A stretch of DNA of 64,000 bases. It comes from an uncultured delta proteobacterium (GTDB lineage: Bacteria > Myxococcota_A > UBA9160 > JAFDET01). The notes beneath the pieces are model-generated. The model saw only the letters and a list, made by a program, of their open reading frames with translations, was not told the origin of the DNA and did no database searches. Position numbers and translations under genes: made by a program. Within the stretch, counting starts at the first letter, position 1. Each line of letters opens with the position of its first letter. Of this stretch, positions 45,624 to 62,336 are shown one piece after another. The stretch lies in contig CAMYLJ010000029.1 of NCBI GenBank assembly GCA_947259215.1, positions 1 through 64,000 on the forward strand, given 5' to 3'.

Positions 45624-45665
45624 GGCGGTCCTCCGGCGGGCGAAGCCCGCTGGATCCATACTACC

Positions 45666-45680: not shown

Positions 45681-45687
45681 ACGAGCC

Positions 45688-46863
45688 ATGGACCTCCGCT
45701 ACGACGAGAGCCAGCAGGCCTTCCGCGCGGAGCTGCGCGCCTGGCTGGCCGACCACGTGACGCGCCCCTGGACCCAGGAGCTGCGCGACCCGGCCAACGA
45801 CGCCGACGCCCTGGTCGAGCTGCGGCGCGACTTCCAGCGGGAGCTGAACGACGCCGGCTTCCTGGGCCTCGACTGGCCGGTCGAGTGGGGCGGGCGCGGG
45901 CTCGGCCCCGTCGAGAAGAACATCTTCCAGGAGGAGACGGCCTGGGCGGATGCACCGCCCGTCCCGAACTTCCTCGGGATCGGCCTGCTCGGTCCCGCCC
46001 TGATCCACCACGGGAGCGAGGAGCAGCGCCGGCGCTTCATCCCCAAGATGCTCTCGGCGGAAGAGATCTGGTGCCAGGGCTTCAGCGAGCCCGGGGCAGG
46101 CAGCGACCTGGCCGGCATCCGCTGTCGCGCCGAGCCCGACGGCGACGACTTCCGCATCCACGGCCAGAAGGTCTGGACCACCTTCGGACCGTGGGCGGAC
46201 TGGATCTTCGTGCTGGCCCGGACCGATCCCGAGGACCGCTACGGCGGGATCACGTTCTTCCTGGTGCCGCTCCACCAGGACGGCGTCGACATGCGGCCCC
46301 TGCGCCAGATCACGGGGGAAGCCGAGTTCGGCGAGGTCTTCTTCGACGGCGCCCTCGCCCGGCGCGCGCACGTGGTGGGGAAGCTCGGCGAGGGCTGGCA
46401 GATCGCCATGACGGTGCTGGCCTACGAGCGCGGCGCCACTGCGCTGCTCGAGCCCGCCAAGAACGACCGCTACCTGAAGGACCTGGTGACGGGCTGCCGC
46501 GAGAACGGGACGCTCGGGCGCCCCGACGTGCGCGAGCGCATCGCACGGCTCCTCGCTGACAACGAGGTCATCCGCGCCAACGCGTACCGCACGCTGGCCA
46601 CACTGGCGGCGGGTCGCGCGCCGGGACCCGAAGCCTCGCTCGAGAAGCTCTTGTGGACCGAGCACGCCCGACGCCAGTCCGAGGCCGCCTTCGACCTGCT
46701 GGGGCCCCAGGCCCAGCTCGCGACCCGCGCGCACCACGCGCGGCCCGAGATGGACTGGGCCTACGAGCACCTGTGGTCACGCGCGGGGACCATCTACTCG
46801 GGCTCGTCGGAGATCCAGCGCAACATCATCGCCAAGCGCGTGCTCGCGCTGCCGACCCGCTAG
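45688..46863 (+). CDS. Acyl-CoA dehydrogenase, long (alpha-type) subunit
   Basis: A 391-residue acyl-CoA dehydrogenase. WCQGFSEPGAGSDLAGIR, HGQKVWTTFG, EFGEVFFDGALA and YSGSSEIQRNIIAKRVLALP. A Glu in VLAYERGAT occupies the isovaleryl-CoA-dehydrogenase base position. GGGAG lies 7 bp before the ATG. It is followed 10 bp later by a shorter paralogue; such long/short pairs form alpha2-beta2 enzymes in steroid side-chain oxidation (known for ChsE-type proteins), so a heterotetramer is likely. Confidence 0.92.
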   Translation: MDLRYDESQQAFRAELRAWLADHVTRPWTQELRDPANDADALVELRRDFQRELNDAGFLGLDWPVEWGGRGLGPVEKNIFQEETAWADAPPVPNFLGIGLLGPALIHHGSEEQRRRFIPKMLSAEEIWCQGFSEPGAGSDLAGIRCRAEPDGDDFRIHGQKVWTTFGPWADWIFVLARTDPEDRYGGITFFLVPLHQDGVDMRPLRQITGEAEFGEVFFDGALARRAHVVGKLGEGWQIAMTVLAYERGATALLEPAKNDRYLKDLVTGCRENGTLGRPDVRERIARLLADNEVIRANAYRTLATLAAGRAPGPEASLEKLLWTEHARRQSEAAFDLLGPQAQLATRAHHARPEMDWAYEHLWSRAGTIYSGSSEIQRNIIAKRVLALPTR

Positions 46864-46873
46864 GGAGCCTCGC

Positions 46874-47956
46874 ATGCAGTTCGACCTGGACGACGAGCGC
46901 GCACAGCTGAAGCAGGCGACGCGCGAGCTCTTGGAGGGCGAGTCACCCCTGGCCGAGTCCCGGGCGCTGATGGAGCAGAGCGCCGAGGGCTTCTCCAAGG
47001 CACTCTACGCGCAGCTGGCGGAGCTCGGCTACCTGGGATTGCTGCTGCCCGAAGACGCGGGCGGCGCCGGTGTGGGCCACGTCGGGCTCGCGGCAGTGCT
47101 GGAGGAGATGGGCCGCGTGGCGTTTCCCGGTCCGTTCCTCGACCAGATCCTGGCCATCGAGACCCTGCGCCGCTGTCCCGGCGACGAGGCGCGGCGCTGG
47201 CTCGAGCGCGCGCTGGGCGGCGACGTACTCGTCGTCCTGGCCCGGGCGGAGACCCTGTCGCTCGACGAGCCCGCGCAGCCCGAGACGCGGCTCGCGGACG
47301 CGCGGATCGTCGGACGCAAGCGTTGGGTACCCTTCGGCGCCCAGGCGGACGCGCTGCTCGTGACCACCGACCAGGGCCTCGCGCTCGTGCCGCGCCCCGA
47401 CAGTGGCTGGAATGCGACGCCGCTGGAGACCATCGACCTGGCCCAGCGCTTCGCCGAGATCCCGCTCGCTGCACCCGGGAGCGCGCTGCTCGGCCCGGCG
47501 GCGACCGACGCGGCGCTCGCCGAGGTGGACCGCACCGGCGCGCTCGCCGCGGCGGCGCTCCTGCTGGGCGTGATGGAGCGCTCCCTCGAGCTGACCCGCG
47601 ACTACACCGTCGAGCGCCAGGCCTTCGGCGCACCCATCGCGAGCTTCCAGGCCCTGCAGCACCGCATGGCCGACATGCTGATCCAGACCGAGGGAACCCG
47701 CGCCGCGGTCTACCGCGCGGCCTGGGCGACGGATGCGGAGGACGCCGACGCGGCACGGCTGGTGGCGGTCGCCAAAGCGCAGGCGGGCGACGCATCGCGC
47801 TTCGTCTGCGGCGAGACGATCCAGCTCCACGGGGGGGTCGGCTACACCTGGGAGTACGACCCCCACATCTACTACAAGCGCGCCAAGACCCTGGAGCAGT
47901 TCTACGGCTCGACCCGCGACGCGCTCGAGCAGCTGCTCGAAGCCTCGGGGATCTGA
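46874..47956 (+). CDS. Acyl-CoA dehydrogenase, short (beta-type) subunit
   Basis: A 360-residue partner-type acyl-CoA dehydrogenase. The N-terminus LGYLGLLLPEDAGGAGVGHVGLAAVLEEMGR is canonical, while the middle beta domain is shortened and the SEPGAGSD substrate motif is missing. The C-terminal ERQAFGAPIASFQALQHRMADM, IQLHGGVGYTWEYDPHIYYKRA is normal FAD-contact sequence. Expected to form a dimer of dimers with the product of 45688. Convergent with the next dehydrogenase. Confidence 0.9.
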   Translation: MQFDLDDERAQLKQATRELLEGESPLAESRALMEQSAEGFSKALYAQLAELGYLGLLLPEDAGGAGVGHVGLAAVLEEMGRVAFPGPFLDQILAIETLRRCPGDEARRWLERALGGDVLVVLARAETLSLDEPAQPETRLADARIVGRKRWVPFGAQADALLVTTDQGLALVPRPDSGWNATPLETIDLAQRFAEIPLAAPGSALLGPAATDAALAEVDRTGALAAAALLLGVMERSLELTRDYTVERQAFGAPIASFQALQHRMADMLIQTEGTRAAVYRAAWATDAEDADAARLVAVAKAQAGDASRFVCGETIQLHGGVGYTWEYDPHIYYKRAKTLEQFYGSTRDALEQLLEASGI

Positions 47957-47971
47957 CGCGCGCCGACGCGT

Positions 47972-49093
47972 TCAGCGGCGTCCGCCGAGGCCGAGCCCCT
48001 GGCGGGCCACGATGCTGCGCATGATCTCGGTGGTGCCGCCGCCGATGGTCTCCCACAGGCTCTGCCGCCAGAGCGTGTTCATGCGATTGCCGTCAACCAG
48101 GGTCTCCGGGCCGCCAAACGCCATGGCGGCGCGCGCGATCTCCTGACACGCCAGGGTGTGCACGACCTTGTTGGCGGCCGCCTCCACCGCGGCGTCGCGG
48201 CCCTTCTGCATGGCGTCGAGGACCCGCAGGCCCCAGATCTCCGCCTCCTCCACCCGCACCGCCAGGTCCGCCAGGCTGCGACGCACGTGGGGGTGCCCGA
48301 CGAGCTGGTGCTCCCGCGCGAACGCCACCACTTCCTCCAGGTCGCGGCGCACGCGCTTGGGCGCGAACTGGATGTGTCGCTCGTCGGCCAGCGCCTCGCC
48401 CACGATCTTCCAGGCGCCGTTCTCCGGTCCCACCCGGCTCGCGACGGGCACCTCGACGGCGTCCAGGTGGATCTCGTTCAGCTGGTCGCCGTCGAGGGTC
48501 GGAAGCGGCCCCACCCGCACGCCCGGCGCGTCGCGCGGCACGACGAAGAGCGAGAGTCCCGCCCCGCGGCTCTCCTGGGAGCCCGTGCGCGCCAGGAGCC
48601 ACAAGCAGTCCATGTCCTGGGCGTAGGACTGCCAGCATTTCTGGCCCGTCACGACGTAGGTGTCGCCGCGCCGCTCTGCGCGGCAGCGCACGGCGGCCAG
48701 GTCCGAGCCGGCTTCGGGCTCGGAGTAGCCGAGGGAGAAGTGGAGCTCGCCGGCCCGGATGGGCGGCAGCCACTCGCGCTTCTGCGCCTCGCTGCCGTGG
48801 CGGATGATCGTCTTCGCGACGATGCCGGAGGCCAGCGGGTTTCGCGCCGCGCGCGCGTACGCCACCTCGTCCCACAGCAGGTACTCCCAGGAGAGCGGCA
48901 TCGCGAGGCCACCCGCCTCCTCGGGCCAGACGAGCGCCAGCCAGCCGCGCTCGCCCATGGCCCGGAAGAGCGCGCGCACGCGCTCCCAGTGGTGGCCCTG
49001 GCAGTAGAAGGCGTCGAGATCGCGCCAGTCGTCCAGGAACGCGACGACCTCGGCGCGGAACGCCTCCTCCTCCCGAGAGAAGCCGAGGTTCAC
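47972..49093 (-). CDS. Acyl-CoA dehydrogenase, long type
   Basis: A 373-residue acyl-CoA dehydrogenase. LGYSEPEAGSDLAAVRCR, TGQKCWQSYAQDMD, and C-terminal GGGTTEIMRSIVARQGLG. The possible base Glu lies in EALADERHIQF. GTG start overlaps the upstream crotonase stop (GTGA). Last gene of a five-gene minus-strand operon (three dehydrogenases, crotonase, dehydrogenase) that starts under the degenerate operator at 52823. Confidence 0.91.
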   Translation of the reverse strand: MNLGFSREEEAFRAEVVAFLDDWRDLDAFYCQGHHWERVRALFRAMGERGWLALVWPEEAGGLAMPLSWEYLLWDEVAYARAARNPLASGIVAKTIIRHGSEAQKREWLPPIRAGELHFSLGYSEPEAGSDLAAVRCRAERRGDTYVVTGQKCWQSYAQDMDCLWLLARTGSQESRGAGLSLFVVPRDAPGVRVGPLPTLDGDQLNEIHLDAVEVPVASRVGPENGAWKIVGEALADERHIQFAPKRVRRDLEEVVAFAREHQLVGHPHVRRSLADLAVRVEEAEIWGLRVLDAMQKGRDAAVEAAANKVVHTLACQEIARAAMAFGGPETLVDGNRMNTLWRQSLWETIGGGTTEIMRSIVARQGLGLGGRR

Positions 49094-49914
49094 GACTCCT
49101 CGTCCTCGACCCGCGCGTTCGGGTCCGGGTTCCAGCGCGGCTCGCGCTTCTCGGCGAAGGCGCGCGGGCCCTCGCGGAAGTCCGGGTGGCCCCAGTGCAG
49201 GCGCAGCAGGCCCCAGGCGTGCTCGAGCGCCTCGCCGTAGCCGCGTTCGAGCGCGCCCCACACCGCCTGCTTGGAGAGCGCCATGGCCTGGGGCGAGTTG
49301 CGCTTCATGACGTCGGCCATCTCGCGGGCCAGGGGCAGCAGGTCCGCCGGCGCGGCCACCAGCTCCTCCACCAGCCCCAGCTCGTACGCGCGGCGTGCAG
49401 GCATCCGGTAGTGGCGACCCATCAAGGTCATGCGCAGGGCCGAGCCCAGGGGCAGCCGCCGCGCCAGCCCGACGTTCTCCAGCGCGCCCACCATCCCCAC
49501 GTTCACGTGGGCATCCATGAAGGCCGCGTTCTCGGAGGCCAGCACGATGTCCGAGTCCACCACGAAGTGCAGCCCGCCCCCGACGCAGAGACCGTTCACC
49601 GCGCAGATCACCGGCTTCCAGACCCGGTTCTGGCGCGGCGACCAGTGCACGGCGTCAGCCAGCGGGCGGTTGTTGAAGACGGACTCCGCCTCGCCGCCCT
49701 CGGCCTCGGCGACGTCGAAGCCGGTGCAGAAGTGGCGCTCGCCCGCCGCGCTGACGATCGCCACGCGGATCTCCGGATCTTCGCGCACCTCGCCCCAGAT
49801 CTCCCGCATGCGTCCCTGCATGGACGGCGTCAGCGCGTTGCCGCGCTCCGGCCGATCGAGAGTGATGGTGGCGACCCCGCCCTGCGTCTCGTAGCGGATG
49901 TCGGTCTGCGTCAT
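49090..49914 (-). CDS. Enoyl-CoA hydratase/isomerase (crotonase) family
   Basis: A 274-residue crotonase. ATITLDRPERGNALTPSMQ, RHFCTGFDVAE and NGLCVGGGLHFVVDSDIVLAS; the second catalytic position reads VGMVGALENVGLARRLPLG. The His in GGGLHFV in place of the usual Glu and the low Glu content of the active site suggest it may not be a classical hydratase. Overlaps genes on both sides by 4 bp, so it is strictly co-translated with the dehydrogenases. Confidence 0.9.
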   Translation of the reverse strand: MTQTDIRYETQGGVATITLDRPERGNALTPSMQGRMREIWGEVREDPEIRVAIVSAAGERHFCTGFDVAEAEGGEAESVFNNRPLADAVHWSPRQNRVWKPVICAVNGLCVGGGLHFVVDSDIVLASENAAFMDAHVNVGMVGALENVGLARRLPLGSALRMTLMGRHYRMPARRAYELGLVEELVAAPADLLPLAREMADVMKRNSPQAMALSKQAVWGALERGYGEALEHAWGLLRLHWGHPDFREGPRAFAEKREPRWNPDPNARVEDEES

Positions 49915-50729
49915 CGCGCCTCCTCCCCCAGATTCCAGTCCAACAGCACGCGCTCCCGCGCCTCGCTCAGCGTGGGAGGTTGGCTCGCCAGCTGGAGGAT
50001 GCGGCGGGACACGTGGAAGACCGGCCCCTCCAGGGTGATCCCCACGGCCCCGAAGAGCTGGTGGCAGGCGTGCGCCGCGTCGACGGCGGCCCGCGTCGCC
50101 GCGAACTCGCCGATCGCCCGGCCGAACTGCTTCCGGGACCGCACGTGCTCGGCGGTTGCGTCCACCAGCTTCCGCGCTGCCGCCGCCAGGTAGCACGCCG
50201 ACGCCAGGTCGTGGAGCGCCAGGGCACGCGACGCGTCTCCCAGGTCTTCCGTCACGTCGCAGTCGGCGCGACCCCAGGGCTCGCCGCCCAGGGTTCCCAC
50301 GGGCTCGGGCGTTCCGCGCGGAGCGAGCCGCACGGCCCGGCCCTCGCGCACCGCAAGGATCACGTCCGCCTCGCAGCCGAAGGGCAGCAGCGGCGGCTCC
50401 GCCAGTGACACCAGCGCCTCGCCGCGCGCCACGGCGGCGCGCTCCTCGTCGGGGAGCACCTGGGTCGCGAAGAAGCTCGCCGCCAGCGGTCCCGGAAAGA
50501 GCGCCGCCCCGAGCGACTCCATGGCCGCTGCGAGCTCGAGCGCCCCGCCGTCTCCTTCCGGTGTCGCCAGCGCCAGGATCCCGAGCTCCGCCAGCGCCTG
50601 CCACGGCTCGCGCGCGAAGCTTCCCGCTCCGGCGCGAATCGCCTGCTCGGGACAGCGATCCCGCGCAAAGGCCGCGACCGCGTCGGCGATGGCGCGCCCA
50701 GCGTCGTCGAGCTCGAGGTCGAGGCTCAT
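49911..50729 (-). CDS. Short acyl-CoA dehydrogenase subunit
   Basis: A 272-residue acyl-CoA dehydrogenase-like protein, clearly shorter than the usual 380. The N-terminal helical domain and the C-terminal RSRKQFGRAIGEFAATRAAVDAAHACHQLFGAVGITLEG are present; the middle beta domain is mostly gone and no catalytic Glu can be placed. Such proteins act as beta subunits. Start and stop both overlap neighbours by ATGA. Confidence 0.87.
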   Translation of the reverse strand: MSLDLELDDAGRAIADAVAAFARDRCPEQAIRAGAGSFAREPWQALAELGILALATPEGDGGALELAAAMESLGAALFPGPLAASFFATQVLPDEERAAVARGEALVSLAEPPLLPFGCEADVILAVREGRAVRLAPRGTPEPVGTLGGEPWGRADCDVTEDLGDASRALALHDLASACYLAAAARKLVDATAEHVRSRKQFGRAIGEFAATRAAVDAAHACHQLFGAVGITLEGPVFHVSRRILQLASQPPTLSEARERVLLDWNLGEEAR

Positions 50730-51655
50730 GCGTCCCCCGCCCAGCGCGCCGACGCCACCGCGCGGCCGTGCGCCGGCGCTCCGCCCAGCTCGAGACGCAG
50801 CGCCTGGAGGCGCATGCTCCACACGTGCAGATCGTGCTCGCGCGTGAAGCCCATGGCGCCGCTGAACTGGTGCGTCTCGTCGAAGACCCGCCGCGCCGCC
50901 TGGGCGGCGTGGGCCGCGGCGACCGCCGCGCCCTCGACGGGCGCGCCGGCATGGGCCGCCTCCAGGGCCAGCCAGCGGCTGCCCTCCACCGCCACGTGCA
51001 GCTGGGCCAGGCGATGCTGCACGCCCTGGAAGGAGCCGATGGCGCGCCCGAACTGGCGACGCTTCTTCACGTAGTCGAGGGTCGTGTCCAGGGCGGCGCG
51101 CATGCAGCCCGCGAGTTCCGCCGCCAGCGCGACCTGCCACCACGCCCGGAGTCGCTCCGCCGCTTCCGGTCCCAGACGGGTTCGCTCGCGACCGCCCTGC
51201 ACCCGGCCCATGGGAAAGCCGAAGTTCGAGGCCACCGCCTCCGTGTCTCCTGGCTCGAGGGAGAGCACCGCGACGCCGTCGGCTTCGAGGCGCAGCGCGC
51301 TCCGGGCATGGGCGGCGTAGCGCACCGGGAGCTCGCGCTGCGTGGGAAGCAACGCGACCGGTCGCGGCAGCTCCTCGTCGACGAGCAGCGGCGCCACCAG
51401 CGCCGCGGCCCCGACGCCGATCACGCCCCCGGCACGCGCCACCGCCTCCACCAGCAGCGCCGCCTCGAGGGGACCCGTCTCGTCGCCCCGCGCCAGGTCC
51501 AGGAATCCGGCCTCGGCCAGGGCGTCCTCCAGCGGCGAGTCGTACTCCGCCTTGGCGGACAGCGCGATCGCCCGCTCGGGACCGGCGTGACGCGTGAGCA
51601 GCTGCTCGACGGCCTCGAGGATGGCCTGCTGGTCGGCGGCGAGCTCGAAATCCAC
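50726..51655 (-). CDS. Short acyl-CoA dehydrogenase subunit
   Basis: A 309-residue acyl-CoA dehydrogenase-like protein. KKRRQFGRAIGSFQGVQHRLAQLHVAVEGSRWL and DETHQFSGAMGFTREHDLHVWSMRLQALRLELGG mark the C-terminal FAD domain; the central beta domain is reduced. GTG start, 6 bp after the long subunit at 51662. Together with the gene at 49911 there are two short subunits and two long ones in this operon, perhaps two heteromeric enzymes (inference). Confidence 0.87.
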   Translation of the reverse strand: MDFELAADQQAILEAVEQLLTRHAGPERAIALSAKAEYDSPLEDALAEAGFLDLARGDETGPLEAALLVEAVARAGGVIGVGAAALVAPLLVDEELPRPVALLPTQRELPVRYAAHARSALRLEADGVAVLSLEPGDTEAVASNFGFPMGRVQGGRERTRLGPEAAERLRAWWQVALAAELAGCMRAALDTTLDYVKKRRQFGRAIGSFQGVQHRLAQLHVAVEGSRWLALEAAHAGAPVEGAAVAAAHAAQAARRVFDETHQFSGAMGFTREHDLHVWSMRLQALRLELGGAPAHGRAVASARWAGDA

Positions 51656-51661
51656 CTCGCG

Positions 51662-52807
51662 CTACTCCCGCGGCAGGCCGAGCACGCGGCTCGCGACGAG
51701 GTTCAGCTGCACCTCGGTAGCGCCCACCGCCACGCCCGCCGTCATGGCCCAACGGAAGCGCGTGTCTGCGTAGCTCCCGTAGACCAGCGCCTCGCTGCCG
51801 AAGAGCTCGACGGCCAGGTCCGCCACCGCCTGCTCGGCGGTCGTCGCCGCCACCCGCGCCACGTTGGCGTCGGCGCTGGGCGGAAGGCCGTGAGCGCGCT
51901 GGTCGATCACGCGGTAGCTGAGCAGTCGCGCCGCCTCGCAGAGTGCACGGGCCTCGCCCAGCTGCTCGCGCACCCGCGGCTCGCCCAGCTGGCCGCGCGC
52001 GCGCGCCTGCTCCGCCAGGTCGTCCAGGATCCGCGCGGCGCGGTGATAGCGCGCCGCGCCCACGCGCTCGTGCTGGAGCGCGTAGGTGACGACGGACCAG
52101 CCTTCGTTCTCCGGGCCGAGCCGACAGGAGACGGGGACCCGCACATCGCTGAAGAAGACCTCGTGGAAGTAGCGATCGCCCACCACCGACGGGATCTCGC
52201 GCACGTCGATCCCGGGCAGATCCATCGGCACGAGCAGCACCGAGATGCCCCGGTGCCGCTTCGACTCGGGATCGCTGCGCACCAGCAGGAAGCAGTAGTC
52301 CGCGTGGTTGGCGTAGGAGGTCCAGATCTTGGAGCCGTTCACGGTGTAGTCGTCGCCGTCGCGCGCCGCGGCGGTGCGCAGGGCCACCAGGTCGGAGCCC
52401 GCCTCGGGCTCGGAGAAGCCCTGGCACCAGAGCACCTGGCCGGCGGAGATCTTCGGCAGGTGGAGCGCCTTCTGCTCCTCGCTGCCGTGCTGCATGATCG
52501 CCGGGCCGATCCAGTTGACGTTCATGTACTGCGGGCCGCGGGGCTCGCCGATGCCCCACATCTCCTCGCCGAAGATCGCGTGGCGCCAGGGCGAGGCGTC
52601 CGCGCCCCCGTGCGCGCGAGGCCAGCTCTGGGTGAGCCAGCCGCGCTCGGCCAGCCGGGCGCAGAACGCCCGCGAGAAGGACGCCTGGGCATCGCTGCCG
52701 GGCCCGCCGCGGGAGAGCTCCTCCCAGTCGTCCGGCAGTGCCTCCGCCAGGAACTCCTGGACCTCGCGGCGGTAGGCGACCTCTTCGGGCGACCAGTCGA
52801 ACTCCAC
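51662..52807 (-). CDS. Acyl-CoA dehydrogenase, long type
   Basis: A 381-residue acyl-CoA dehydrogenase. WCQGFSEPEAGSDLVALRT, NGSKIWTSYANHADYC, RYFHEVFFSDVRVPVSCRLG and the C-terminal VAVGATEVQLNLVASRVLGLPRE. A Glu in ALQHERVGAARYH is the likely base. GTG start with GGGAGG upstream. First gene of the operon, 16 bp downstream of the degenerate palindrome and divergent from the acyl-CoA ligase at 52909. Confidence 0.92.
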   Translation of the reverse strand: MEFDWSPEEVAYRREVQEFLAEALPDDWEELSRGGPGSDAQASFSRAFCARLAERGWLTQSWPRAHGGADASPWRHAIFGEEMWGIGEPRGPQYMNVNWIGPAIMQHGSEEQKALHLPKISAGQVLWCQGFSEPEAGSDLVALRTAAARDGDDYTVNGSKIWTSYANHADYCFLLVRSDPESKRHRGISVLLVPMDLPGIDVREIPSVVGDRYFHEVFFSDVRVPVSCRLGPENEGWSVVTYALQHERVGAARYHRAARILDDLAEQARARGQLGEPRVREQLGEARALCEAARLLSYRVIDQRAHGLPPSADANVARVAATTAEQAVADLAVELFGSEALVYGSYADTRFRWAMTAGVAVGATEVQLNLVASRVLGLPRE

Positions 52808-52908: not shown

Positions 52909-54570
52909 ATGGCCTTCCCGGACTACGCGCCGTCGATCCCGGTCTTCCTGCGCCGGCTGGCGCAGCGCTTCGGCGAGAAGGAGCTGGTGGTGCTGGGCGA
53001 CCAGCGCCTCAGCTACGCGGGCGCGGAGCGCGAGTCGGCCGTGCTGGCCCGCGGCCTGCTGGCGGCCGGCGTCGGCAAGGGCACGCGCGTCGGCCTCTTG
53101 CATCCGAACGGTCCCGACTGGGTGACGGGCTGGCTGGCGGCCGCGCGCATCGGCGCCCTGGTGGTGCCGATCAACACCTTCTACCAGGCGCGCGAGCTGG
53201 GCCGGATCCTGCGCCACGCGGACGTGCACACGCTGCTCTCCCGCGCGCGCTTCCTGCGCCACGACTACCTGACGCAGCTCGAGGTGGCCGCGCCGGAGCT
53301 GGCGGCGCAGAAGGGCGAGCCGCTGCATCTGCCGAGCCTGCCGTACCTGCGCGCCGTGCGCGTCTGGGGCGGGAGCGATCGCGCCTGGGCCGGCGACGGC
53401 CCGCACGGCCTGCGCGCACTCGCAGCTGCGACGCCAGCCATCGACGACGCCTACCTCGCGGCGGTGGAGGAGCAGGTCGCGCCCGCGGACCCGATGATCC
53501 TGATCTACAGCTCGGGCAGCACCGCCGAGCCCAAGGGCGCGATCCACAGCCACGGCGCCGTCCTGCGCCACTCCCACAACCTGAACCAGTTTCGCGACAT
53601 CCAGGAGAGCGACCGCATCTACACCCCGATGCCCTTCTTCTGGGTCGGGGGCTTCTCCTTCGGCCTGGTGTCGGCGATGCACATGGGTGCCAGCATGATC
53701 TGCGAGGAGCTCTTCGAGCCGGGCGCCACCCTCGACCTGATCGAGCGCGAGCGCGCCACGGTGGTGGCGGGCTGGCCCCACTACGCCAAGGCGCTGGCGG
53801 AGCATCCGAGCCTGCGCGAGCGCGACCTGTCTTCGATCCGCACGGGCAACCTCTACGAGGTGCTGCCGCCGGAGCTGCGCCCGCGCGACCCGGAGCTGCG
53901 CTCCAACTCCCTCGGCATGACGGAGACCGGCGGACCCCACACCATCGACCGCATGGACGTGGACCTGCCCGAGACGCTGCGCGGCTCCTTCGGGCGCTCG
54001 GTGCCCGGCCTCGAGCACAAGCTGGTGGACTCCGAGACGGGCGAGCGCCTCGAAGCCGGTGACTTCGGCGAGATCTGCGTGCGCGGCTACAGCGTGATGC
54101 AGGGGCTCTACAAGGTGGAGCGCGAGGACGCGTTCGATGCCGACGGCTACTACCACACGGGGGACGGCGGCCGCTTCGACGCCGAGGGCTACCTCTTCTT
54201 CGAAGCGCGGCTCGGCGACCTGATCAAGACCGGTGGCGCCAACGTGGCGCCGCGGGAGGTGGAGGTGGCGCTGATGGCCCTGCCGGAGGTGAAGCAGGCC
54301 TACGTCGTCGGCGTACCGCACCCCGAGCGGGGGCAGACGGTGGAGGCCGCCGTGGTCCTCCAGGCGGGCCGCAGCGCCGAGGCCGACGACCTGCGCGCGC
54401 GCCTCAAGGCGGAGCTCTCGGCGTACAAGGTGCCGCGCCACCTGTTCCTGTACACGAGCGCCGAGCTCCCCTTCACCGACAGCGGCAAGATCGACAAGCG
54501 CGCGCTCGCCACCCTGCTCGCCGCGCGCCTGGCCCGAAGAGCGAGCCTGAGAAACGGGGACGGTCCTTAG
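52909..54570 (+). CDS. Acyl-CoA synthetase (AMP-forming, FadD-like)
   Basis: A 553-residue ANL ligase. IYSSGSTAEPKGAIHSHGAV is the P-loop-like motif; NSLGMTETGGPHTID is the adenine block; YHTGDGGRFDAEGYLFFEARLGDLIKTGG and AYKVPRHLF complete the hinge and C-terminal domain; DSGKIDKRAL carries the catalytic Lys. The last residues SLRNGDGP are encoded by the 67-bp palindrome that has inserted over the gene end, replacing the native C-terminus. Activates the acid for the divergent dehydrogenase operon. Confidence 0.93.
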   Translation: MAFPDYAPSIPVFLRRLAQRFGEKELVVLGDQRLSYAGAERESAVLARGLLAAGVGKGTRVGLLHPNGPDWVTGWLAAARIGALVVPINTFYQARELGRILRHADVHTLLSRARFLRHDYLTQLEVAAPELAAQKGEPLHLPSLPYLRAVRVWGGSDRAWAGDGPHGLRALAAATPAIDDAYLAAVEEQVAPADPMILIYSSGSTAEPKGAIHSHGAVLRHSHNLNQFRDIQESDRIYTPMPFFWVGGFSFGLVSAMHMGASMICEELFEPGATLDLIERERATVVAGWPHYAKALAEHPSLRERDLSSIRTGNLYEVLPPELRPRDPELRSNSLGMTETGGPHTIDRMDVDLPETLRGSFGRSVPGLEHKLVDSETGERLEAGDFGEICVRGYSVMQGLYKVEREDAFDADGYYHTGDGGRFDAEGYLFFEARLGDLIKTGGANVAPREVEVALMALPEVKQAYVVGVPHPERGQTVEAAVVLQAGRSAEADDLRARLKAELSAYKVPRHLFLYTSAELPFTDSGKIDKRALATLLAARLARRASLRNGDGP

Positions 54571-54902: not shown

Positions 54903-54909
54903 AAATCGC

Positions 54910-55563
54910 ATGGCCCAGGCCTCCCCCGCCCTCTCCTCGCGCGCCGAGCGCACCCGCTCCGCCATCCTGGACGCGGCCGAGGCCCTCTTCGCCGAGAAGG
55001 GCTTCGACGCCACCCGCCTGGAGGACGTGGCCGCGGCGGTCGGCATCCGGCGCGCCTCCATCGTCTACTACTTCCGCGACAAGCGGGAGCTCTACGAAGC
55101 GGTGCTGGAGGACGTCTTCGGGGGCTTCCGCGCCCGGCTCGAGCGGGCCCTCGGTGAGTCGGGTCCGCTGCTGGCGCGGATCGAGGCCGCCGTCAGCGCC
55201 TGGGTGGACTACGTGGCCGCCCGCCCCGCCCTCGCCCGCATCGTGTTGCGCGAGGTCGCCGACGGCGCGGAGGCGGGACCGCTGCCGATCCTCGCCCAGG
55301 TGGGTCCCTTCCTCGCGCTCGTCGACCGCTTCCGCGACTCCGTGCGCAACGACCCCGCGTACCGCGCGACGCCGATCGACGCCGTCCACGTGGCCAGCGC
55401 CATCGTGGGCGCGACCGTCTTCTTCATCGCGGCGATGCCGAGCCTGATGCCGGAGCCGGGCATGGAGGCGCTCGCGCCCCCCACGCTCGACGCGCATCGC
55501 CGCGAGGTGCTGCGCATCACCCGGCGCCTGCTCGGCGCCGACGATCCCGCCCCCCCCTGCTGA
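54910..55563 (+). CDS. TetR/AcrR family regulator
   Basis: A 217-residue repressor. The HTH domain spans residues 10-58: RSAILDAAEALFAEKGFDATRLEDVAAAVGIRRASIVYYFRDKRELYEAVLEDVF. The rest is a helical ligand-binding and dimer domain with hydrophobic stretches around AIVGATVFFIAAMPSL. No good Shine-Dalgarno precedes the ATG. The palindrome just upstream argues for autoregulation. It is followed 8 bp later by the P450, and the operon continues through the fusion protein and ligase, so it should govern all of them. Confidence 0.93.
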   Translation: MAQASPALSSRAERTRSAILDAAEALFAEKGFDATRLEDVAAAVGIRRASIVYYFRDKRELYEAVLEDVFGGFRARLERALGESGPLLARIEAAVSAWVDYVAARPALARIVLREVADGAEAGPLPILAQVGPFLALVDRFRDSVRNDPAYRATPIDAVHVASAIVGATVFFIAAMPSLMPEPGMEALAPPTLDAHRREVLRITRRLLGADDPAPPC

Positions 55564-55571
55564 GGAGCCCC

Positions 55572-56816
55572 GTGGCCGACGACACCCGCGACCCGTTCGA
55601 GCAGTTCAACCGCATGCAGGGTCAGGGCCAGGGGGGAATGCGCGACCTCTACCCGATGATCGACGCCATGCGCGGCCAGTGTCCGGTGCACAAGATCGAC
55701 GTGGAGGCATTCTCGGGCCATCGCCCCCAGCTCCCGAACGCCCCAAAGGAGATCTACCTGGCGGTCAGCCACGAGGCGGTGCACGACGTGCTGCTCGACG
55801 CGAAGCGCTTCTCCTCGAAGGGGTACGAGGAGAGCATCGGCAAGGTGCTGGGGCACACGATTTTGGAGATGGACGAGCCCGAGCACACCACCTATCGCAA
55901 GCTCCTGCAGCAGGCCTTCTCGCGCAAGGCGCTCGAGCACTGGCGCGACGACCTGGTGCACCCGGTGGTGCACGAGCTGGTGGACCACTTCGCCGGGCGC
56001 GGACGCGCGGACCTGGTGCGCGAGCTGACCTTTCCCTTTCCGGTGACGGTGATCCAGCGTCTGCTCGGCATCCCGGACACGGACCAGGCGGACTTCCACC
56101 GCTGGGCGATCGAGCTGATCAGCATCACCTTCGACATGGCGCGGGCGGAGGCCGCCTCGCAGAATCTCGGCGCCCTCTTCCAGCGCCTCCTCGACGAGCG
56201 CCGAGCCGCGCCGCGGGACGACCTGATCAGCGTGCTGGCCCACGCGGAGCTGGACGGCGAGCGCCTCGACGACGAGCTCATCGTGTCCTTCTGCCGGCTG
56301 CTGTCACCGGCCGGCGCCGAGACCACCTACCGCTCCACGAGCAACCTGCTCTTCGGGCTCCTGACCCACCCGGAGCAGCTCGACGCGGTGCGCCGGGACC
56401 GCGGGCTCCTGCCCCAGGCCATCGAGGAAGGCCTGCGCTGGGAGTGCCCGCTGCCGGCGATCATGCGCCGCGCCACCGCCGATACGGAGCTGGCCGGAGT
56501 CCCGATCCCCGCCGGCGCGTCGGTGGCGGTGCACCTGGCCGGGGCCAACCATGACGACTCGCGCCACGCCGCGCCGGGGGATTTCGACATCCACCGCGAC
56601 GCCAAGCAGCACATGGCCTTCGCGTTCGGCGCGCACCGCTGCCTGGGCATGCACCTGGCGCGCATGGAGACCCAGGTGGCCATCGAGGCCGTGCTGGATC
56701 GCCTGCCCGGCCTGCGCCTCGATCCCGAGGCCGGTGAGGTCTTCATCAGCGGGCTGACCTTCCGCTCGCCCCTGCAGCTTCCCGTGGTGTTCGATGCTGC
56801 CGAGCGATTCCGATGA
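55572..56816 (+). CDS. Cytochrome P450 (class I)
   Basis: A 414-residue P450. MDEPEHTTYRKLLQQAFSRKAL, I-helix LLSPAGAETTYRS, ExxR in EEGLRWECP, and haem loop FAFGAHRCLGMHLAR with Cys357. It resembles actinobacterial and myxobacterial CYPs acting on fatty acids, terpenes or steroids. GTG start, 8 bp after the TetR gene. Its stop overlaps the ATG of the fusion gene (ATGA at 56813). Likely redox partner is the ferredoxin divergent from TetR. Confidence 0.94.
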   Translation: MADDTRDPFEQFNRMQGQGQGGMRDLYPMIDAMRGQCPVHKIDVEAFSGHRPQLPNAPKEIYLAVSHEAVHDVLLDAKRFSSKGYEESIGKVLGHTILEMDEPEHTTYRKLLQQAFSRKALEHWRDDLVHPVVHELVDHFAGRGRADLVRELTFPFPVTVIQRLLGIPDTDQADFHRWAIELISITFDMARAEAASQNLGALFQRLLDERRAAPRDDLISVLAHAELDGERLDDELIVSFCRLLSPAGAETTYRSTSNLLFGLLTHPEQLDAVRRDRGLLPQAIEEGLRWECPLPAIMRRATADTELAGVPIPAGASVAVHLAGANHDDSRHAAPGDFDIHRDAKQHMAFAFGAHRCLGMHLARMETQVAIEAVLDRLPGLRLDPEAGEVFISGLTFRSPLQLPVVFDAAERFR

Positions 56817-59800
56817 GCCGGCAGCTGCTGATGGGACTCGACGTGGGCGGCGGCAGCGGCCGCTGCCTGCTCTTCGACGCCGACGCCGGCACCTCCGTCT
56901 CCGCCTGCCGCGCCTGGTCGCATCCGCCCGCTCCCGACACCGGCGGGCTCGGCTACGACCTCGACTACGCCGGCATCTGGCAGTGCCTGGGCGACGCCGC
57001 GCGGGAGACCCTGGCGCGCGCCGACGCCCGCCCCCAGGACGTGGCCGGCATCGCGACCACCGCCATGCGCTTCGGCATGGTGGTGGTGGACGCCGACGGC
57101 CGACCGGTCTACGGCGGGCCCAATCGTGACGCCCGCGCCGTGGTCGAGGGGCTCACCCTGGCGGCCGAGCACGGCGCCGAGCTGGCGGCCCGAGGCGGGC
57201 ACTGGCCGATCCCGATCGCAGGCGCACCTCGCCTCCAGTGGCTGCGCTCCCACGGCGGCTCCGCCTGGGAGAAGGCACGCTGGGTGCTCTCCCTCTCGGA
57301 CTGGCTGGCCCTCGCCCTGTGCGGCGAAGTAGCGAGCGAGCGCTCCCAGGCAGGAGCGAGCCTGCTCTTCGACCTGCACAGCGACGACTGGGACTGGGAC
57401 TGGATCGACCGCTTCGAGCTGCCGCGCGAACTCTTCCCCGCGCTCGCGGCGCCGGGCACCCGGCTGGGCGGTCTCACCGCCGAGGCCGCGGAGCACTTCG
57501 GCCTGCAGGCAGGAACGCCCGTCGCCGTGGGCGGCGCGGACACCCAGTGCGGTCTCCTCGGCAGCGGGGTGGCGGCGCCGGGCACGGCAGGCATCGTGGC
57601 CGGCACCTCGGCGCCCGTCCAGCTGGTGACCGATGCCGTCTGCCTCCACCCGGAGGCGCGCTTGTGGAGCGGCGCCCACGTGGTGCCCGGGCAGTGGGTG
57701 TTGGAGAGCAACGGCGGCTCCCTCGGCGAGGCGCTCGCCTGGCTGGCTCACGTGCTCTTCCCCGATGCGCCCGCTCCGGCGGCGCGCGCGTTGGCGGAGG
57801 CCGCCCGGGCCGAGCCTGGCGCCCGGGGCATGCTCTCCTCGGTGGGCGTTCAGGTCTTCGACGCCCGCGAGATGGGAATCCCGGTCGGAACCCTGGCCTT
57901 CTCGCACCTGGCGGCGCCTGCCGGTGCGGAGGGCCGCGCCGCGCTACTGCGGTCCGTCGTGGAGGGCGCGGCCTTCTCGCTGCGGGCCAACCTCGAACAG
58001 ATTTTCGCCACGGCAGGGCGCGACAGCGACTCGATCCACCTGACGGGCGGTCTCTCGCGCAGCGGCTTCTACGCCGGCCTGCTCGCGGACGTGCTGGGCC
58101 GGGCGCTGCGCGTGGCGTCGTCGCCAGAGGGCACGGCCCTCGGCGCCGCGCTCTGCGCGGGCACGGGCGCGGGCGTCTACGCCGACCTCCCGGAGGCCGC
58201 CCGCGCCGCGGCGGCAAGGACGACCCACATCGAGCCCGACGCTGCGCGCAGCGCGAGCTACGACGACAGCTACGCGCTCTGGCAGGACGTGCGCGCAGCC
58301 CGCGAGCCCGCCGACGTGGCCGTACGCAACCACGTCACCGGCATCGTGATCGCCGCCACCGACGCCGCCTCGGGGGCCGCCGGCCCCCGACCGCGCCCGC
58401 GCATCCTGGTGACCGCCGATCTCGACCCCGCGGCGCGGGAGGCCCTCGCGGAGCTCGGCGACGTGGAGTACGCGCCCTTCCGCGAGAAGCTGCGGCTGCT
58501 CACCGGCGACACCCTGGTGAAGGCCCTCGACGGAGTGGGCGTCTTCATCACGGAGGTGGACGTAGTGGACGCCGCGTCCGTGGCCCGGCTGCCCGACCTG
58601 CGCGTGGTGGCCAGCTGCCGCGGCGACGCCGTGAACGTGGACGTCGAAGGCTGCACGGCACTGGGCGTCCCGGTCCTGAACGCGCCGGGCCGCAACGCCG
58701 ACGCGGTGGCGGACCTGACCGTGGCCTTCCTGCTCATGCTGGCGCGCAAGCTGGTGACCGCCAATGCCTTCCTGCGCGAGCCCGGCGGCGACGCCGGCGA
58801 CATGGGCCGCATGGGCCGCGCTTTCGGCACGCTCCGCGGGCGCGAGCTTTGGCGCAAGACCGTGGGCCTCGTGGGTCTGGGCGCCGTCGGCCGCGGAGTG
58901 GCGAGGCGCCTGCGGGGCTTCGGGGTCCGCCTGCTGGTGCACGATCCGTTCCTCAGCGACGACGAGGTGCGCCTGGCGGACGCCGAGCCCGCCTCCTTCG
59001 AGCAGCTGCTGGCGGAAAGCGACTTCGTGAGCCTGCACGCGCCGGTCAGCGACGCCACGCAGGGCCTGATCGGAGCCGCCGAGCTGGCGCGCATGAAGCC
59101 CGGGGCGGGACTCGTGAACACTGCCCGCGCGGCCCTGGTGGACGAGGACGCCCTGCTCGGGGCGGTGGAGAGCGGACACCTGGGCGGCGCAGCCCTCGAC
59201 GTCTTCTGGGTCGAGCCCCCCGCCTCCGATCACCCCCTGCTCGCCCACGAGCGGGTCCTGGCCACGCCCCACGTGGGCGGCAACACCGAGGACGTGGCCG
59301 CCCACCAGGGCGCCATCATCGCCGCCGACCTGACCCGGCTGCTCGACCGGGAGCGCCCCCACCACCTGCTCAACCCGGCGGTGTGGGACGCCTTCGACTG
59401 GTCGTCGCCGCGCCCGGAGCCGGACCCGGAGACCCTCGCCGCGCTGGGGCGCAAGCCGGGTCCCGCCGTGTCGGACCTGCAGAAGGAGAAGAAGCCGATG
59501 GCTCCTCGAACCGCCTCGCCGCCGCCCTCTCAGCCGGCGACTCCCGCCTCCGGACCCGCCCCCTCGGAGACCGTGGCGACGCTGCGCGCCATCCTCGAGC
59601 GCTTCGTGTCCTCGATCGTCGCGAGCGGGGCGCTCGAGCCCTACGCGGCGGGCAAGGACGTGACCCTCCACTTCCGCGCCACGGACGCCGACCTGGCCTT
59701 CTGGCTCCGGCTCCGGGGCGGCCGAGTGAGTGCCGGTCCGGGCGCGCCCGACGAGGAGCCCGAGGTGCAGCTGAAGCTCGCGGCCGACGTGCTGGACGGA

Positions 59801-60637
59801 ATGTTCACCGGGCGCGTGAACGCCATGCAGGCCGCCATGGACGGTCGCCTCTCCTTCGCCGGCGATACGGCCAAGGCCATGAGCCTCCAGGAGTTCCAGG
59901 GGGATCTCTCGCGGCTCTACCGGGAGGCCCGGGACGCCGTCGGTGACCCCGGGGACCTGACCGCCCTCGCGACCCCCGGCCAGAGCTCCGTCGCCGCGGT
60001 CGCCCACGACGACCCGCGCCACGAGCTGATCCAGGTGATGGACGAGCTCTACGCCCAGCAGCTCATCACCGCCACCGGCGGCAACGTCAGTGTGCGCGTC
60101 CCGGGCGAGGACGCCCTCTGGATCACGCCGAGCCAGCTCTTCAAGGGCGACCTCTCGCCGGAGGCGCTGGTGCGGATCGATCTCGACGGCAAGGCCCTCG
60201 ACGAAGGAGTGCGCTCCGCCTCCAGCGAGCGCCTGATGCACTGCGCCGTCTACCGCACCCGCAAGGACGCAGGCGCGGTGATCCACGCCCACGCGCCCCA
60301 CGCCACCATCCTGGCCAACACCGACCTGCCCTTCCTGCCGATCTCCACCGAGGCCGCGTTCTTCGACAACCTCCCGCGCATCCCCTTCGTGATGCCGGGC
60401 ACCCAGGAGCTGGCGGACGCCGTCGCTGAGGGCATGCGCGAGAGCTGGGCCGTGCTGATGAAGAACCACGGGCTGCTGGTCGGCGGACGCAGCCTGCGGC
60501 GAGCTGCCGACATGGTGGAGATCATCGAGCGCTCTTCGGAGGTGATCCTGGGCTGCTACGCCGTCGGCCGGGAGCCGCCGGTCCTGCCCGACGACGTGGT
60601 GGCGACCCTGCGCAAGATGGGCGATCTCGTCGCCTGA
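56813..60637 (+). CDS. Four-domain fusion: FGGY kinase - 2-hydroxyacid dehydrogenase - SCP2 - class II aldolase
   Basis: 1274 residues, no internal stop. (1) Residues 1-500, FGGY carbohydrate kinase: LMGLDVGGGSGRCLLFD, base Asp243 in GGADTQCG, ATP site TGGLSRSGFYAGLLADVLG; LsrK-like. (2) About 528-870, NAD-dependent D-2-hydroxyacid dehydrogenase: Arg603, GLGAVG at 688-693, Glu801, His820. (3) About 925-1043, SCP2 sterol/lipid-binding domain (VTLHFRATDADLAFWLRL). (4) About 1065-1274, class II aldolase: Glu1139, His1158, His1160, His1219, spaced like the catalytic Glu and zinc ligands of fuculose-phosphate aldolase. A Pro/Ser-rich linker (896-920) separates 2 and 3. Coupled to the P450 by ATGA. 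The domains suggest phosphorylation, oxidation and aldol cleavage of a polyol linked to or derived from a lipid; unproven. Confidence 0.85.
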   Translation: MSRQLLMGLDVGGGSGRCLLFDADAGTSVSACRAWSHPPAPDTGGLGYDLDYAGIWQCLGDAARETLARADARPQDVAGIATTAMRFGMVVVDADGRPVYGGPNRDARAVVEGLTLAAEHGAELAARGGHWPIPIAGAPRLQWLRSHGGSAWEKARWVLSLSDWLALALCGEVASERSQAGASLLFDLHSDDWDWDWIDRFELPRELFPALAAPGTRLGGLTAEAAEHFGLQAGTPVAVGGADTQCGLLGSGVAAPGTAGIVAGTSAPVQLVTDAVCLHPEARLWSGAHVVPGQWVLESNGGSLGEALAWLAHVLFPDAPAPAARALAEAARAEPGARGMLSSVGVQVFDAREMGIPVGTLAFSHLAAPAGAEGRAALLRSVVEGAAFSLRANLEQIFATAGRDSDSIHLTGGLSRSGFYAGLLADVLGRALRVASSPEGTALGAALCAGTGAGVYADLPEAARAAAARTTHIEPDAARSASYDDSYALWQDVRAAREPADVAVRNHVTGIVIAATDAASGAAGPRPRPRILVTADLDPAAREALAELGDVEYAPFREKLRLLTGDTLVKALDGVGVFITEVDVVDAASVARLPDLRVVASCRGDAVNVDVEGCTALGVPVLNAPGRNADAVADLTVAFLLMLARKLVTANAFLREPGGDAGDMGRMGRAFGTLRGRELWRKTVGLVGLGAVGRGVARRLRGFGVRLLVHDPFLSDDEVRLADAEPASFEQLLAESDFVSLHAPVSDATQGLIGAAELARMKPGAGLVNTARAALVDEDALLGAVESGHLGGAALDVFWVEPPASDHPLLAHERVLATPHVGGNTEDVAAHQGAIIAADLTRLLDRERPHHLLNPAVWDAFDWSSPRPEPDPETLAALGRKPGPAVSDLQKEKKPMAPRTASPPPSQPATPASGPAPSETVATLRAILERFVSSIVASGALEPYAAGKDVTLHFRATDADLAFWLRLRGGRVSAGPGAPDEEPEVQLKLAADVLDGMFTGRVNAMQAAMDGRLSFAGDTAKAMSLQEFQGDLSRLYREARDAVGDPGDLTALATPGQSSVAAVAHDDPRHELIQVMDELYAQQLITATGGNVSVRVPGEDALWITPSQLFKGDLSPEALVRIDLDGKALDEGVRSASSERLMHCAVYRTRKDAGAVIHAHAPHATILANTDLPFLPISTEAAFFDNLPRIPFVMPGTQELADAVAEGMRESWAVLMKNHGLLVGGRSLRRAADMVEIIERSSEVILGCYAVGREPPVLPDDVVATLRKMGDLVA
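59483..59500 (+). promoter_or_regulatory. Internal Shine-Dalgarno and ATG within the fusion gene
   Basis: AAGGAG at 59483-59488 and an in-frame ATG at 59498-59500, nine bases apart, fall exactly in the linker between dehydrogenase and SCP2 domains. Initiation here would yield a separate 379-residue SCP2-aldolase protein beside the full-length fusion. It may also be the relic of the gene boundary before fusion. Confidence 0.6.
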
Positions 60638-60644
60638 GGAAGCG

Positions 60645-62336
60645 GTGATTCCGAAGAGCGACATCGCCCTGCACAACACCGTCGAGACCGAGCTGTTGGC
60701 CGAGGACGGCCCGTTTGCCGTCGAGGAGGTCCCGGTCCTGGGCGCGCCCTGCCCGGTCTTCCGCGATCGGCTGCCCCATCTGCGTCAGCTGCTCGAGAAC
60801 TCGCGCGGCTTCGGAGACGCCGAGTACATCGTCTACGCCGGCCGCCGCGTGAGCTTCGCCGAGCACCACGCACGGGTGGCCTCCGTGGCCCGCGCGCTGG
60901 CCGAGCGCTTCGGCGTCCGCAAGGGCGACCGGGTCGCCATCCTGGCGGCGAACCGCCCCGAGTGGGTGATGACCTGGTGGGCCGCCGTCAGCCTCGGCGC
61001 CATCCCGGTGGGCATGAACGGCTGGTGGGTGGCCGACGAGATCCGTTTCGCGCTGGAGGACAGCGAGCCGAAGGTCCTGGTCGGCGACCGCAAGCGCCTG
61101 GAGCGGATCGGCGCGGCGCCCGTGAACGTGCCCATCGTCGAGATGGAGTCGGAGTTCCGCGCGCTGGAGGAGCACGCCCCGGGCGTGACGCTGCCGCAGG
61201 TCGCCATCGACGAGGACGACCCGGCGAGCATCCTCTACACCAGCGGCACGACCGGCCGCCCGAAGGGCGCCATCAACACCCACCGCAACATCATCGCGCT
61301 GAACCGGGTGCAGACGTGGCACGGGCTGCGACTGCTCAAGATCGCCCTGGCCCAGGGTGGCGGCGGGGCCGGCGCTCCCCTCGGCAACTGCACCCTGATC
61401 ACCTCGCCCCTCTTCCACCTCTCCGGCCTCTACACGGGCGCGGTGACGCTCCTCGCCGCTGGCGTGAAGACCGTCTACCTGGAGGGACGCTTCGATCCCG
61501 AGCGAACGCTGGCCGTGATCCAGGACGAGAAGGTCACGAGCTGGGGGCCCATGGGCACCGTGGCGCTCCGCATCATGAATCACCCGGAGGTGGGCCGCTA
61601 CGACCTCTCCAGCATCCGCCAGCTCGGATCCGGAGGCGCCCCGGTGTCGCGCGAGGTGCAGGCCCAGATGCGCGAGGTCTTCCCGGGCGCGCGCGCCTCC
61701 CTCGGGCTCGGCTACGGGATGACCGAGGCCACCGGCATGGCCACGATCAATTTCGGTGCGGAGCTCGAGGCGCACCCGGAATCCGTGGGGCGCGGCCTCC
61801 CGACCATCGACGTGGCGATCCGCGACGCCGACGGACGGCCCGTGCCCGAAGGAGCCGAGGGCGAGATCGGCATCCACGGGCCATTGGTGATGCGCGAGTA
61901 CTGGCGGCGTGCCGAAGCCACCCGGGAGGTGCTGGCGCCCGGACGCTGGCTCCGCACCGGCGACGTCGGCCGGCTCGAGAACGGCTACCTCTACGTCAAT
62001 TCCCGCGCCCGCGACCTCATTCTGCGCGGCAGCGAGAACGTGCACCCGGCGGAGATCGAGATGCGGCTCGAGGCGCACCCCGACGTGGTGGAGGCGGCGG
62101 TCCTCGGCGTGGACCACCCGGAGCTCGGCCAGGAGGTGAAGGCGGTGGTGGTGCCGCGGCCCGGCGCAACGCCGTCGTCGGGCGACCTTTCGCACTGGGT
62201 CGCCGAGGCGTTGGCCTACTACAAGGTGCCCGCACACTGGGAGCTGCGCCGCGAATCCCTGCCCCGCAACGCCACCGGGAAGGTGCTGAAGGGAATCCTG
62301 CGCGAAGGCGGCGAAAGCCCCTTCGTCGAGGACTGA
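60645..62336 (+). CDS. Acyl-CoA synthetase (AMP-forming)
   Basis: A 563-residue ANL ligase. ILYTSGTTGRPKGAINTHRNI, LGYGMTEATGMATIN, LRTGDVGRLENGYLYVNSRARDLILRGSENVHPAEIE, and YYKVPAHWELRRESLPRNATGKVLKGIL with the catalytic Lys. The N-terminal 60 residues (LLAEDGPFAVEEVPVLG) are an extension typical of long-chain or terpenoid acid ligases. GTG start 7 bp after the fusion gene, with GAGGAAG upstream. Last gene of the TetR operon; it would activate an acid product of the P450 or aldolase steps (inference). Confidence 0.92.
   Translation: MIPKSDIALHNTVETELLAEDGPFAVEEVPVLGAPCPVFRDRLPHLRQLLENSRGFGDAEYIVYAGRRVSFAEHHARVASVARALAERFGVRKGDRVAILAANRPEWVMTWWAAVSLGAIPVGMNGWWVADEIRFALEDSEPKVLVGDRKRLERIGAAPVNVPIVEMESEFRALEEHAPGVTLPQVAIDEDDPASILYTSGTTGRPKGAINTHRNIIALNRVQTWHGLRLLKIALAQGGGGAGAPLGNCTLITSPLFHLSGLYTGAVTLLAAGVKTVYLEGRFDPERTLAVIQDEKVTSWGPMGTVALRIMNHPEVGRYDLSSIRQLGSGGAPVSREVQAQMREVFPGARASLGLGYGMTEATGMATINFGAELEAHPESVGRGLPTIDVAIRDADGRPVPEGAEGEIGIHGPLVMREYWRRAEATREVLAPGRWLRTGDVGRLENGYLYVNSRARDLILRGSENVHPAEIEMRLEAHPDVVEAAVLGVDHPELGQEVKAVVVPRPGATPSSGDLSHWVAEALAYYKVPAHWELRRESLPRNATGKVLKGILREGGESPFVED

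Follow-up and report, generated by a model that had tools for sequence, protein, structure and literature searches.

A kinase–dehydrogenase–SCP2–aldolase fusion protein with a possible role in removing polyol side chains from bacterial lipids

Few molecular fossils are used as widely as hopanoids, which serve geologists as bacterial biomarkers. The side chain of the bacteriohopanepolyols derives from 5'-deoxyadenosine. It arises by way of adenosylhopane and then ribosylhopane (PMC12583986), and this origin makes it, by chemical reasoning, a 5-substituted 5-deoxyribose. The aldolase DrdA cleaves 5-deoxyribulose-1-phosphate into DHAP and acetaldehyde (PMC6079011). Within hopanoid clusters, hpnA is a gene of unknown function that is absent from Alphaproteobacteria without hpnH (PMC12583986). 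The C30-C34 hopanoic acids of sinters have been explained as products of the oxidative cleavage of vicinal diols (PMC4339782), and chemical cleavage of the side chain of tetrafunctional hopanoids yields C32 products (PMC6460317). The literature searched named no enzymes for microbial trimming of the hopanoid side chain, and searches on the architecture reported here and on hopanoid catabolism returned no description.

The window analysed is a stretch of 64,000 nucleotides from an uncultured delta proteobacterium (contig CAMYLJ010000029.1). One of its genes encodes a protein joining FGGY kinase, 2-hydroxyacid dehydrogenase, SCP2 and class II aldolase domains (Table 1). We propose that this protein acts in catabolism, its single chain removing the polyhydroxylated end of a lipid, most likely the side chain of a bacteriohopanepolyol, and put the probability of this reading at about 0.45.

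Domains and conservation of the fusion protein

The preliminary description of this DNA reported a single open frame bearing four domains. The frame is unbroken, and every domain exceeds its Pfam gathering score: FGGY_N (residues 6-250), FGGY_C (261-451), 2-Hacid_dh (531-854), 2-Hacid_dh_C (638-822), SCP2 (950-1027) and Aldolase_II (1071-1245). The key residues named for the kinase and the aldolase also hold. The kinase domain belongs to the FGGY family by its FGGY_N and FGGY_C matches and its catalytic Asp243, kept in 81 of 82 homologues; one fusion (L042) no longer has this Asp. The aldolase domain retains every metal, phosphate-site and acid/base residue of the FucA/DrdA-type class II enzymes (a Glu acid/base, three His metal ligands and the phosphate-site residues), with E1139/H1158/H1160/H1219 kept in 41 of 41 homologues. 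Its best match by both sequence and fold is DrdA (6btg; 34% identity, TM 0.90), and by residues, sequence and fold it is a ketose-1-phosphate aldolase of the FucA/DrdA type. AraD (L-ribulose-5-phosphate 4-epimerase) carries an Asp where FucA has Glu73; this identity was rejected on the Glu present in all 41 homologues and on an AraD fold match well below those of FucA and DrdA.

The dehydrogenase domain is a D-isomer specific 2-hydroxyacid dehydrogenase with a GxGxxG loop and an Arg/Glu/His set. Of the residues first named for it, the GLGAVG loop, Glu801 and His820 stand, whereas Arg603 does not stand as the catalytic arginine. In the motif VNTARAALVDE, R772 aligns with the Arg of vncaRggivde in phosphoglycerate dehydrogenase and is the catalytic residue; R772/E801/H820 are kept in 77 of 77 homologues. 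R603, invariant in 79 of 79, belongs instead to the substrate loop, where N608, R627 and N628 are also invariant among homologues, and the two extra arginines of this loop would suit a phosphorylated substrate. Enzymes of this family normally use carboxylates, not polyol phosphates, and we know of no member acting on a polyol phosphate. The SCP2 domain is assigned by profile (48 bits against a gathering score of 21.3) and by fold, which in Foldseek is nearest to alkylsulfatase and SCP2 lipid-binding domains; it is predicted to carry lipid. A second start at an internal ATG accompanied by an AAGGAG motif (position 59498, in the linker between the dehydrogenase and SCP2 domains) was rejected, its Met not being kept in relatives.

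Table 1. Features of the window around the fusion gene
Feature	Coordinates	Strand	Remarks
Paired acyl-CoA dehydrogenase genes	45622..47956	+	45622-46863, 46874-47956
Paired acyl-CoA dehydrogenases and enoyl-CoA hydratase-like frame	49090..52807	-	50726-51655, 51662-52807; hydratase-like 49090-49914
Second AMP-forming acyl-CoA ligase	52909..54570	+	adjoins the fusion in relatives too
TetR-type regulator	54904..55563	+	ends 8 bp before the P450
Cytochrome P450	55572..56816	+	4 bp overlap (ATGA) with the fusion start
Four-domain fusion (P0001)	56813..60637	+	open frame, ATG to stop, 1274 aa
FGGY kinase domain	56819..58312	+	residues 3-500; catalytic D243; nearest characterised relative AI-2 kinase LsrK
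2-Hydroxyacid dehydrogenase domain	58394..59392	+	residues 528-860; GLGAVG loop 688-693; D711 (NAD type); R772/E801/H820
SCP2 lipid-carrier domain	59585..59947	+	residues 925-1045; SCP2 fold in AlphaFold model, pLDDT 92.9
Class II aldolase domain	59999..60622	+	residues 1063-1270; E1139/H1158/H1160/H1219; nearest structure DrdA
AMP-forming acyl-CoA ligase	60645..62336	+	begins 7 bp past the fusion; nearest NCBIfam steroid-24-oyl-CoA synthetase CasG, 664 bits

The fusion is not peculiar to the window and is conserved over at least three phyla. About 18 of 98 related genomes carry it in full without a stop at 48-68% identity, including one assembled as a single 3.67 Mb contig, a chromosome (G004). 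Copies spanning 45-68% identity occur in many Myxococcota, in Anaerolineae (Bellilinea, Roseilinea, Thermoflexus) and in some Mycobacterium genomes, among them M. ostraviense, M. innocens, M. attenuatum, M. persicum and M. simiae. The copies in named genomes were found by an alignment-based scan of contigs, a single-protein query having given no match. Only 4 of 98 sampled Mycobacterium genomes have the fusion, and it is single copy in the window's own genome. Purifying selection acts on each of the four domains (dN/dS of about 0.2-0.5), while the linkers evolve faster. This selection, together with the open copies in related genomes and in Mycobacterium, Bellilinea and Roseilinea, excludes the stop, frameshift or assembly artefact that the preliminary description had named as a risk.

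Fused and split versions and their gene partners

Domain models built in this analysis were used to trace the parts through a series of forms. They occur as separate genes (L129/L167; L158; L159), as a kinase–dehydrogenase fusion with a separate aldolase gene in Smithella and relatives, as a kinase–dehydrogenase–aldolase protein (L120, L133), as the four-domain form (about 40 non-redundant loci), and as five-domain proteins with two SCP2 domains in four loci (L092, L096, L100, L137). Three forms have no aldolase (L046, L048, L050), and a further one (L051) is cut off by the end of its contig. The Smithella-type and Sphingomonadaceae forms lack SCP2. The proteins of the split operons L158 and L159 share 36-55% identity with the domains of the window's protein. 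The occurrence of one operon in both split and fused versions shows that the four parts act jointly and that SCP2 has a function among them.

FGGY, 2-Hacid_dh and Aldolase_II are families of sugar metabolism, and the substrate of the three enzymes might be a soluble sugar, polyol or sugar acid, broken down in a route resembling the fucose pathway or DHAP shunt, the dehydrogenase replacing an isomerase and SCP2 being a structural or regulatory add-on. The lack of SCP2 in the Smithella forms and in L120/L133 would agree with this. So would genes found near some copies, which would equally suit a sugar conjugate: a beta-glucuronidase scoring over its cut-off (L088/L094/L128), a sulfatase (L121/L122) and an LsrR/DeoR-like regulator (L087). 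No sugar-phosphate isomerase was found among the annotated neighbours of the fusion, the dehydrogenase being present instead. However, SCP2 is under strong selection, is doubled in four loci and has its own gene in an unfused operon, and HpnA, the CasG-like ligase and the P450 are partners of a lipid type, which makes a soluble substrate rather unlikely.

The evidence that carries most weight for function, and which we regard as decisive, is the HpnA and operon context in Anaerolineae. HpnA, a hopanoid-associated epimerase family, is encoded directly upstream of the fusion in four loci (L079, L100, L111, L162), and the order GntR–AOR–class III aminotransferase–M28–HpnA–fusion, in which AOR is an aldehyde ferredoxin oxidoreductase, is common to L079, L111 and L162. 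The HpnA calls, made at related loci in 10 Anaerolineae rather than in the window, score 415-469 bits against a TIGR03466 cut-off of 367.65. One split operon (L158) reads DH-KIN-ALD-AOR-AT-M28-HpnA; in the other (L159), SCP2-DH-KIN-ALD-AOR-AT is divergent from M28-HpnA and SCP2 is a stand-alone gene. On the kinase–dehydrogenase tree the HpnA-linked fusions fall on separate branches, and the split form occupies a third one. Of 298 Anaerolineae genomes sampled from the class, 10 contained HpnA, 15 the fusion and three both, with the two adjacent in 3 of 3; the chance of at least three shared genomes is about 0.01, a figure that ignores relatedness.

HpnA lies beside the aminotransferase or module in 8 of 8 HpnH-negative HpnA genomes and in 0 of 3 HpnH-positive ones (Fisher 0.006, ignoring relatedness). 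It lies beside or near HpnH in L156 and L157, and the L157 copy shares up to 79% identity with the copies in the module. HpnH, the gene that marks biosynthesis of the hopanoid side chain, is absent from 23 of 24 fusion or relative genomes and from the module-bearing HpnA genomes; the presence of HpnA without HpnH stands out because hpnA is missing from Alphaproteobacteria that lack hpnH (PMC12583986). The HpnA linkage is limited to Anaerolineae and does not extend to Myxococcota or Mycobacterium; near the Mycobacterium copies an SDR is only distantly similar and gives no HpnA match. No clear correlation of HpnH with the fusion was seen among the relatives of the window, so the idea that the fusion depends on hopanoid biosynthesis in its host genome was rejected; the window's own genome has HpnH on another contig. 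Finally, in 13 cases an AOR or aldehyde dehydrogenase gene lay no more than three co-oriented genes away from the fusion, against none among 379 distant genes, which fits an aldehyde product; each related locus enters this count on its own, and the enrichment p-values ignore relatedness.

The class III aminotransferase, the M28 peptidase (a possible amidase) and AOR of these operons could also indicate another lipid (amino-)polyol, such as a phytosphingosine-type base, from which the aminotransferase would make a ketone and the aldolase would free DHAP and a fatty aldehyde. This chemistry is equally good on paper, and alkyl chains are ligands of SCP2 and of the alkylsulfatase domain, but a dehydrogenase would be unneeded after the aminotransferase, and HpnA and the CasG-like ligase would be left without a role. 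Such a substrate is unlikely.

In the window itself, the gene spacings in Table 1 bear out the operon with a P450 and an acyl-CoA ligase reported earlier. The acyl-CoA dehydrogenase pair on the forward strand is putatively associated with the fusion and probably catalyses later steps of beta-oxidation; the reverse-strand group may be associated as well. The downstream ligase scores 664 bits against the curated CasG cut-off of 750 and is therefore not filed as CasG. This CasG-like ligase, the P450 and the paired acyl-CoA dehydrogenases, with the sulfatase and beta-glucuronidase close to some copies, would be compatible with steroid polyols or bile-alcohol conjugates as substrates. Such substrates are nevertheless improbable given the HpnA linkage, the sub-threshold CasG score and hosts that are mostly Anaerolineae, environmental Myxococcota and Smithella.

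Proposed function

It is probable that the protein phosphorylates, oxidises and cleaves a lipid polyol. The reaction order and direction, the role of the dehydrogenase and the substrate given here are those we infer. The FGGY domain would phosphorylate the terminal hydroxyl of the lipid polyol, followed by the dehydrogenase using NAD to convert the neighbouring secondary alcohol into a ketone, giving a lipid-linked analogue of a ketose-1-phosphate. The class II aldolase would then catalyse a retro-aldol reaction to release DHAP (three carbons) and a lipid aldehyde, whilst the SCP2 domain would grip the hydrophobic body for passage between the active sites. An AOR or aldehyde dehydrogenase elsewhere, or possibly the P450 in the window, could convert the aldehyde into an acid, from which the CasG-like ligase would form the CoA ester for beta-oxidation. 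In a hopanoid, C35 would be phosphorylated, C34 oxidised and the bond between C33 and C32 broken by retro-aldol cleavage, with DHAP and the C32 (bishomohopanoic) aldehyde, then the acid, as products.

A pathway of polyol phosphorylation and cleavage on a lipid or terpenoid skeleton had been suggested in the preliminary description. That suggestion is supported, although the label of sugar-acid enzymes is unproven, the aldolase being of the FucA/DrdA type. Of the glycoside and polyhydroxylated side chain offered there as examples, the side chain is favoured by the HpnA linkage, the stand-alone SCP2, the aldehyde-oxidising partners and the CasG-like ligase. Because HpnA is limited to Anaerolineae, some neighbours are of a sugar or conjugate type and the dehydrogenase would have an unusual substrate, we consider the lipid polyol chemistry probable and no more, and the bacteriohopanepolyol side chain is put forward tentatively, at somewhat less than even odds. 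With a little more reserve still, we suggest a dedicated pathway for side-chain removal in which one enzyme holds the lipid on SCP2 while its kinase, its dehydrogenase and its aldolase work one after another. The opposite, biosynthetic direction, in which a polyol head group would be built by aldolase-catalysed addition of DHAP to a lipid aldehyde, would agree with aldol equilibria favouring condensation (PMC6079011) but is very improbable, since the kinase would be pointless, the acyl-CoA ligase and aldehyde-oxidising partners indicate catabolism, and the HpnA-bearing fusion hosts are without HpnH.

The protein is a concrete, expressible candidate for hopanoid side-chain trimming, and the fusion gives a lead on HpnA, which, if the proposal is true, has a catabolic setting besides its biosynthetic one. 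Even with a different substrate, the kinase–dehydrogenase–carrier–aldolase chain and its natural split versions would make a strong model for channelling a lipid between soluble active sites.

Comparison with described systems

The DHAP shunt for 5-deoxyribose disposal (DrdK, DrdI and DrdA; MtnK, MtnA and an aldolase) resembles the fusion in combining a kinase with a class II aldolase that takes a 5-deoxypentose-type chain to DHAP and an aldehyde. The fusion has an FGGY kinase in place of DrdK/MtnK and an NAD dehydrogenase in place of the isomerase, and is one chain that includes a lipid carrier and has lipid-type neighbours. Membership of the shunt, defined by kinase, isomerase and aldolase, was rejected on the isomerase. 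The L-fucose and L-rhamnose pathways (FGGY kinase, isomerase, FucA/RhaD) share the FGGY kinase and FucA-type aldolase, whereas the fusion is without an isomerase, has dehydrogenase and SCP2 domains fused in and carries an LsrK-like kinase. The autoinducer-2 kinase LsrK is the best match of the kinase domain (PDB 5ya0), yet at 254.6 bits the domain falls far under the equivalog cut-off of 528 (NF008187) and was not assigned as LsrK; no LsrF or LsrG genes were recognised adjoining the fusion.

With the hopanoid cluster (hpnA, hpnO, hpnH, hpnG), the related operon shares an HpnA family member and an aminotransferase; it is without HpnH, and none of its kinase, dehydrogenase, aldolase and SCP2 genes is a known hpn gene. 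CasG provides the nearest curated model of the downstream ligase. While its catalytic domains and reactions are unrelated to those of multifunctional enzyme type 2 and the alkylsulfatase SdsA1, the fusion resembles both in having an SCP2 domain, presumably for a lipid substrate.

Domain make-up and broken copies of the fusion

Several fusion homologues depart from the four-domain arrangement. The homologue at L042 has lost the kinase catalytic Asp (GGNAIQ vs GGADTQ), its other domains being intact. Four loci (L092, L096, L100, and L137) carry two SCP2 domains in tandem, flanked by the dehydrogenase on one side and the aldolase on the other. At L046, L048, and L050 the aldolase domain is missing, and a dihydroorotate-dehydrogenase-like gene (PF01180) comes directly after the fusion; this same arrangement also adjoins the full-length fusion of L036. 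In L047/L086 (a UBA9160 MAG) and L165 (G256), the fusion is split into two overlapping frames with the break inside a domain, probably through assembly frameshifts.

Within the window fusion, the tabulated ATG following AAGGAG is a possible internal start. Its Met is not conserved among relatives.

Features in the window and at related loci
Feature	Location	Remark
AAGGAG + ATG	window 59483-59500	dehydrogenase-SCP2 linker of the fusion
DUF3179 protein	window 62880-63824	downstream of P450-fusion-ligase operon
PAPS reductase (CysH)	window 44001-44819	score exceeds curated cut-off
Variant fusion, L042	3798-7595 (G085)
HpnA locus, L158	G130:C90	Anaerolineae, without HpnH
HpnA locus, L159	G263:C43	Anaerolineae, without HpnH
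HpnA locus, L160	G138:C46	Anaerolineae, without HpnH

Gene neighbourhoods

The DUF3179 gene is similarly placed in the two nearest relatives, L063 and L064, and cysH adjoins acyl-CoA dehydrogenase genes. At L088, L094, L128, L163, and L165, the fusion has an aldehyde dehydrogenase gene on one side and, on the other, genes encoding a small membrane protein and a beta-glucuronidase, the latter scoring above the PRK10150 cut-off in L088. In L121 and L122, the kinase-dehydrogenase and aldolase genes precede a sulfatase gene and genes for one radical SAM/SPASM protein and one membrane protein of the VTT family. At L158, L159, and L160, the neighbours of the hopanoid-associated HpnA genes are either unfused SCP2, dehydrogenase, kinase, and aldolase genes, or an aldehyde ferredoxin oxidoreductase, an aminotransferase, and an M28 peptidase alone.
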